Source: Nitrospira sp. KM1 (GTDB lineage: Bacteria; Nitrospirota; Nitrospiria; Nitrospirales; Nitrospiraceae). From it: a DNA stretch of 64,000 nt. The stretch spans positions 3,596,001 to 3,660,000 of the forward strand of contig NZ_AP022671.1 in assembly GCF_011405515.1 (NCBI RefSeq). The letters run 5' to 3'. The position numbers and the translations under genes are program-made. The notes beneath the pieces were generated by a model. It was not told the DNA's origin. It worked only from the letters and a program-made list of their open reading frames with translations, and did no database searches. Below, piece by piece: positions 30,437 through 31,057 of the stretch (position 1 is the stretch's first letter; every line of letters begins with the position of its first letter).

Positions 30437-30512
30437 GGGGGGCTAGCTCAGTTGGGAGAGCACTACGTTCGCAACGTAGGGGTCGGGGGTTCAACTCCCC
30501 TGCCCTCCACCA
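30437..30512 (+). tRNA. tRNA-Ala (anticodon CGC)
   Basis: A 76-base cloverleaf with encoded CCA. The acceptor GGGGGGC pairs with GCCCTCC (one G-U). The D arm is TAGCTCAGTTGGGAGAGCA. The anticodon stem CTACG/CGTAG holds loop TTCGCAA, giving anticodon CGC for GCG (Ala). The T arm GGGGTTCAACTCCCC is canonical. It is followed at once by the hairpin array. Confidence 0.95.
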
Positions 30513-30529
30513 AACCAAGCTCGCTCGTG

Positions 30530-30823
30530 CCGCGTGCTCTTCAGCGCAGTATCGTGATTGCTGCACGCGGATAAAAACCTCCAGAAGTCTTGTCTTATGC
30601 TTGCGCGTGCCGTCCGCTCATTATCGCTTTATGGAATTGTGCGGGCGGATAAAAGCCTCCAGTTTTCTCTCTGGGCCGAACCAAGCCCGCTTGTGCCGCG
30701 TGCTCTTCAGCGCATTATCGTGATTGCTGCACGCGGATAAAACCTCCAAGAAGTCTTGTCTTACGCTTATGCGTGCCGGCGACTCATCAGGCGAAGCCTC
30801 CCTCCCATCTTTATCGTCGACGG
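30530..30823 (+). repeat. Array of four tandem hairpin units
   Basis: Four units start at 30530, 30610, 30696 and 30776 (spacing 80, 86, 80). Stems are CCGCGTGC/GCACGCGG, CCGTCCGC/GCGGGCGG, CCGCGTGC/GCACGCGG and CCGGCGAC/GTCGACGG. The loops are 25, 23, 25 and 32 bases. Each stem is preceded by GTG or close to it and followed by ATAAAA or ATAACC, the first three then having CCTCCAG or CCTCCAAG. Units 1 and 3 lie within near-identical 100-base blocks (30513-30612 and 30679-30778). Stem sequence varies with mostly preserved pairing. The rest of the gap to 31057 shows no gene. Confidence 0.7.
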
Positions 30824-31057
30824 ATAACCGATAACATTCACTATCAACGCATCGAATGTCCAAGTAGCAGTGGATAGTCCGTATGCACGAGGATTTTTGC
30901 CGATTAAATTTAGCCCGGAATAAAACGCAACGTGCATGAGGAGACTACGATATAGATTCGCACGTTGGATTGATTAGGCTGAGCACAAGGCCTTGAAGTG
31001 GCATGTTTATTTTCTCCTCTTGTTTTGATATCTGTTGCAGACCTGCCGGAGGTTGTT

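Follow-up and report, generated by a model that had tools for sequence, protein, structure and literature searches.

The four tandem hairpins that lie behind tRNA-Ala(CGC) in the window (the whole stretch of DNA analysed here, 64 kb in length) are probably copies of a mobile element that is non-coding, about 95 bases long and specific to Nitrospira, and that enters DNA 3' of a CNCCA word. Small mobile repeats seldom show a target this sharp and biologically telling, and one short word appears to explain insertion both behind tRNAs and directly upstream of ribosome-binding sites. If this reading is true, Nitrospira, which are key nitrifiers, have a lineage-specific element that alters many 5' leaders simultaneously, and tRNA-adjacent covarying hairpins should not be read as new small RNAs.

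The repeat array downstream of tRNA-Ala(CGC)

The sole tRNA of the window, tRNA-Ala(CGC), is flanked by what we take, from reading the open reading frames without a family search, to be purN and a response-regulator gene, and the first array unit lies directly 3' of its CCA. The initial annotation had placed four tandem hairpins at 30530-30823. The hairpins themselves are real, with GTGCCG at the start of the array units at positions 30527, 30607, 30693 and 30773 (a period of 80/86/80), while the limits of the array are corrected to 30513 and about 30833. The features, in window coordinates, are as follows.

30437..30512, forward strand: tRNA-Ala with anticodon CGC (ARAGORN, Rfam RF00005); the CCA encoded at its end is the apparent target site
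30513..30591, forward strand: unit 1, comprising AACC, a small hairpin, the big stem, the tail ATAAAAACCTCC and a spacer
30530-30570, forward strand: big stem of unit 1, CCGCGTGC...GCACGCGG
30592..30677, forward strand: unit 2, with its big stem at 30610-30648 (CCGTCCGC...GCGGGCGG) and a tail
30678..30757, forward strand: unit 3, with its big stem at 30696-30736, CCGCGTGC/GCACGCGG as in unit 1
30758..30833, forward strand: unit 4, a degenerate copy, with its big stem at 30776-30823, CCGGCGAC/GTCGACGG, containing one mismatch
30513..30833 (end approximate), forward strand: whole array, in which a dimer alignment shows a ~166-bp block of two units present twice

A covariance model (R1; 75 positions, 8 pairs) was built from 32 aligned units; because only units with 7 or more of the 8 stem positions paired were admitted, pair counts are biased. 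Searched against the whole window, R1 scores unit 1 at 86.2 bits (E 9e-23) and unit 2 at 67.0 bits (E 3e-17), both of which belong to the training set, and unit 3 at 70.3 bits (E 3e-18), which lies outside the training set but is paralogous to unit 1. Unit 4, likewise outside the training set, reaches 16.4 bits (E 0.011 in the window, 7e-5 within the array) and, though degenerate, is in register with the other units. The pattern CGTGCCG-N20-50-CGGATAA has three matches in the window versus 0.01 expected; the array is not reported by Tandem Repeats Finder.

As had been observed at the outset, most stem changes between units keep pairing, with one T.G pair in unit 2 (CCGTCCGC/GCGGGCGG) and a single mismatch in unit 4. 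The four units do not, however, contribute equally to this observation, because units 1+2 and 3+4 represent a duplicated block: unit 3 is near-identical to unit 1 and shares its stem, the two are not independent, and the array therefore counts as fewer than four independent observations.

Unit structure and stem covariation

Across the family, the unit consists of (A/T)ACC, a small hairpin with a TTC or CTTG loop, an 8-bp CCG...CGG hairpin, a tail of A(T/G)AAACACCTCCAGTG and a pyrimidine-rich end, the palindrome occupying 39-48 nt of the ~95-nt unit. The sequence past the big stem is non-random for ~33 bases, the last of them pyrimidine-rich, and the full unit length is therefore near 95 bases.

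Among 147 distinct units, the 8-bp stem is paired in 98.6% of cells, and 176 stem cells are changed on both sides; shuffles give 46 such cells, and sliding the pairing partner along the sequence gives far fewer. The units were aligned by fitting to the model, a procedure that favours pairing, but the contrast with slid partners is large. These values support selection on the hairpin, as proposed earlier, or its inheritance. G.T and A.C mismatches, counted as a test of the folding strand, number 13 versus 6, which is too few and is biased by the model. In the unit consensus, read by eye, the integron attC core sites RYYYAAC and GTTRRRY are absent.

Distribution of the repeat

The covariance-model search across Nitrospirota that the initial annotation had called for does recover similar units: R1 matches at E 1e-4 occur in 76 of 295 genomes, all within one family, at 1 to 131 copies per genome, with a few weak matches in a neighbouring family of the same order. 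The genome from which the window derives holds about 19 matches and G017 holds 131, and many full-length matches are also found in genomes outside the training set (61 in G009, 53 in G024). An apparent uniqueness of the array in its own genome, which had been suggested by an exact pattern and a DNA search, was overturned by the covariance model matches elsewhere. An exact 23-base family pattern is found on 25 contigs, all titled Nitrospira or Nitrospirae, and two exact unit patterns have no match in viral contigs; from these searches the repeat appears to be Nitrospira-specific.

The unit does not follow tRNA-Ala(CGC) in most relatives: no unit is present at this position in four species of the same genus, two are present in G006 and four in the source genome. 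In relatives found by DNA search, similar units stand not only after tRNA-Ala but, unexpectedly, behind other tRNAs too.

Apparent insertion sites at tRNA ends and antisense gene starts

In the two complete genomes in which tRNA positions were taken from Rfam models, and the CCA as that following the tRNA model, units begin exactly after CCA at 5 of 43 tRNAs (source genome) and 9 of 45 (G017). Most of the non-tRNA clusters of G017 start after CCTCCA, with CAT (an antisense start codon) 4-9 bases away, and the same junction near antisense gene starts is found in G009, G024 and G025. Read on the gene strand, the arrangement is element-TGGAGG-N(4-9)-ATG, and the encoded proteins are real, diverse and unrelated, with no common theme seen among those downstream of units. 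A clear ACC start is present in 93 of the 109 clusters read and, in junction classes that were defined after seeing the sequences, 36 of these follow a tRNA or tmRNA 3' end, 34 follow an antisense CCTCCA and 23 follow other sequences, most of which end in CCA or CTA. At most of the 93 clusters, the units stand directly 3' of the short word CNCCA and in constant orientation to it. Two of the 34 antisense clusters, from two genera (L154 and L228), lie at tRNA-Ser 5' ends, the complement of which ends in CCTCCA, and these sites fit a DNA target word rather than a role at tRNA 3' ends.

The covarying stem, the start directly after CCA on the same strand as the tRNA, and the lack of a terminator-like site between tRNA-Ala and the array would also suit a structured RNA of tRNA operons, either a signal for processing or stability of the 3' trailer or an array of small RNAs; a small-RNA array and a tRNA-linked processing signal had been entertained in the initial annotation. 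We nevertheless consider such an RNA very unlikely. Neither a processing signal nor a small-RNA array is supported: most relatives lack a unit behind tRNA-Ala(CGC), units stand behind many other tRNAs and tmRNA, and in other genomes they are mostly antisense upstream of protein genes, at Shine-Dalgarno sites, and also at tRNA-Ser 5' ends. In addition, only tRNA and SRP RNA reach the Rfam gathering threshold, the array giving a chance match only, and the array folded as one RNA is no more stable than its shuffles (z 0.5).

Partial tRNA 3' ends precede the unit at several loci, as would be expected if the units were left over from attachment sites of tyrosine-recombinase islands integrated at tRNA 3' ends. 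However, the unit contains no tRNA sequence, most G017 copies lie at gene starts with no nearby tRNA, and the module that does carry tRNA fragments is a separate sequence, occurring with and without units; an origin as island debris is very unlikely.

Evidence for mobility

At two G017 loci (L138 and L163), the loop of an older copy, CCCCTCTTCAT when intact, is split into CCCCTCT and TTTCAT by ~92-95 bases, with no target duplication evident. These two cases resemble one another and may have a single origin, the composite having spread as one piece; other nested cases gave no clean parse. At the orthologous tRNA-Arg(TCT) locus within one genus, the number of units ranges from 0 to about 3 and their type is variable, and at L248, L259 and L267 the flank CCCAG(A/G)TAGTT resumes directly after the last unit. 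No very close strain yielded a perfectly clean empty site, and many unit copies are degenerate.

A replication-strand bias is suggestive in one genome, G017, where 25 of 30 gene-start clusters are placed as predicted for insertion at leading-strand genes (p 0.006 with 60% of genes on the leading strand, 0.02 with 65%), in a post hoc comparison that relies on sparse GC-skew samples and on clusters picked by eye, with the near-zero-skew region at 0-1 Mb left out.

At L048, L057, L140 and L146, tandem copies that are identical or nearly so recur every 94-100 bp, and some arrays therefore grow by direct duplication.

The 20 loci read in a search for longer copies sharing the 5' end yielded mainly a short-loop unit variant, carried by a separate and longer repeat, and no autonomous element. 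This variant lies inside longer dispersed repeats at L333-L347 and L352 (G017) and at L133, L135 and L137 (source genome), and at least 15 G017 copies of the longer repeat that contains it share up to ~460 bp.

Comparison with known mobile repeats

The initial description of a 'REP-like cluster' came near the mark, though neither a GTAG tag nor an association with Y1 genes was found. In common with the REP/REPIN and RAYT (TnpA-REP) systems, the Nitrospira repeat comprises short intergenic palindromes of high copy number, in clusters, with covarying stems and suspected single-strand mobility. The units might accordingly be taken for domesticated REP sequences moved by host IS200/IS605-type Y1 (HUH) transposases, a relationship consistent with the hairpin, the constant orientation to a short 5' word, the absence of an evident target duplication, the tandem arrays and a weak positive rank correlation between unit number and Y1 genes (37 genomes; rho 0.36, p 0.03). 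This relationship is nonetheless unlikely. G009, G024 and G028, with 61, 53 and 27 units, respectively, have no detected Y1_Tnp, and the 30 Y1 loci have no clear flanking unit, the only candidate being a doubtful partial match of 16.7 bits at L203. REP superfamilies carry GTAG or CGTC tags and measure 20-40 bp (PMC3733652), whereas the ~95-base Nitrospira unit has two hairpins, a pyrimidine tail, no such tag at the stem foot (mainly CGTG, CGTA, TGAA, TGAG and TGAC in alignment A1) and, at tRNA ends as at antisense Shine-Dalgarno sites, a strict CNCCA junction. Overall, Y1 genes do not track the units and no mobilising enzyme was found. The nearest parallel is the CGTC group of REPs, which also lacks a dedicated transposase (PMC3733652).

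Insertion 3' of a short fixed word in a fixed orientation, subterminal hairpins and the absence of target duplication are family properties of IS200/IS605 elements (IS608 type), the mechanism of which is summarised in PMC6006769. The Nitrospira unit resembles these elements and their non-autonomous derivatives in its fixed 5' word, fixed orientation, hairpins and lack of evident duplication, but it is far shorter, has a different target, and no transposase gene was found with its ends. In most bacterial MITEs (RUP, Correia/NEMIS, ERIC, RU-1/2/3), terminal inverted repeats occur together with TA ends and target duplications (PMC2229807). Although MITEs (100-170 bp) are likewise non-coding mobile units, the Nitrospira unit has neither TA ends nor an evident target duplication, and its 5' (A/T)ACCAAGC and pyrimidine-rich 3' end do not form terminal inverted repeats. 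A short repeated palindrome behind archaeal tRNA genes has been proposed as a maturation signal (PMC5217627); the Nitrospira unit shares this position but is found at antisense Shine-Dalgarno sites as well. No description of the repeat was found in the openly accessible literature searched, and the best reading is of a new family of mobile palindromic repeat, REP- and MITE-like but filed outside both groups.

Proposed mechanism

The observed family, unit structure, junctions, nested insertion and locus polymorphism would be accounted for if copies enter DNA directly 3' of a C-rich CNCCA word, typically CCACCA or CCTCCA, with a constant orientation to that word. The word would be available where tRNA and tmRNA genes end in 3' CCA and opposite Shine-Dalgarno sequences (TGGAGG), whose complement contains it; at either kind of site an insertion would leave the gene intact, and copies would spread without destroying it. 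A trans-acting enzyme would move the element, probably as a folded single strand, given the constant orientation, the lack of an evident target duplication and, in G017, the suggestive replication-strand bias. In the window, one unit would have landed behind tRNA-Ala(CGC) and a second would have followed, after which the two-unit block would have been duplicated. The fuller proposition, of a miniature element that homes via one CNCCA word to both the Shine-Dalgarno complement and the tRNA CCA, is moved by something other than a recognised Y1 enzyme and repeatedly places hairpins beside Nitrospira ribosome-binding sites, is advanced as a tentative one.

Other sequences adjoining the units

Units in two genera, at L121 (source genome, 4210647-4210720) and L167 (G017), are preceded by an identical TTTGTTGTAACCC(A/G)GCAGAGGTCC, which possibly reflects an old shared insertion. 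Both adjoin a terminator-like hairpin, and a 5S rRNA-like sequence lies near L121.

A second module of ~150 bases (..GTGTGCCCCCTTCGTGGGGAGCGTACGAGGGGGCTGGCCCCCT..) is present in 13 of 37 genomes, where it follows several tRNAs and closes with a repeat of the 3' end of the tRNA concerned; its loci include L119 (source genome, 1914195-1914236 plus flank), L123 (4463891-4463932), L029, L046, L152 and L222. At L002 (1742-2379; about 2114790-2115430 in the source genome), what is presumably a pair of PIN-domain toxin and AbrB-like antitoxin genes, named from open reading frames without a family search, lies between a tRNA-Glu followed by two units and a degenerate copy of the tRNA-Glu 3' end followed by four units.
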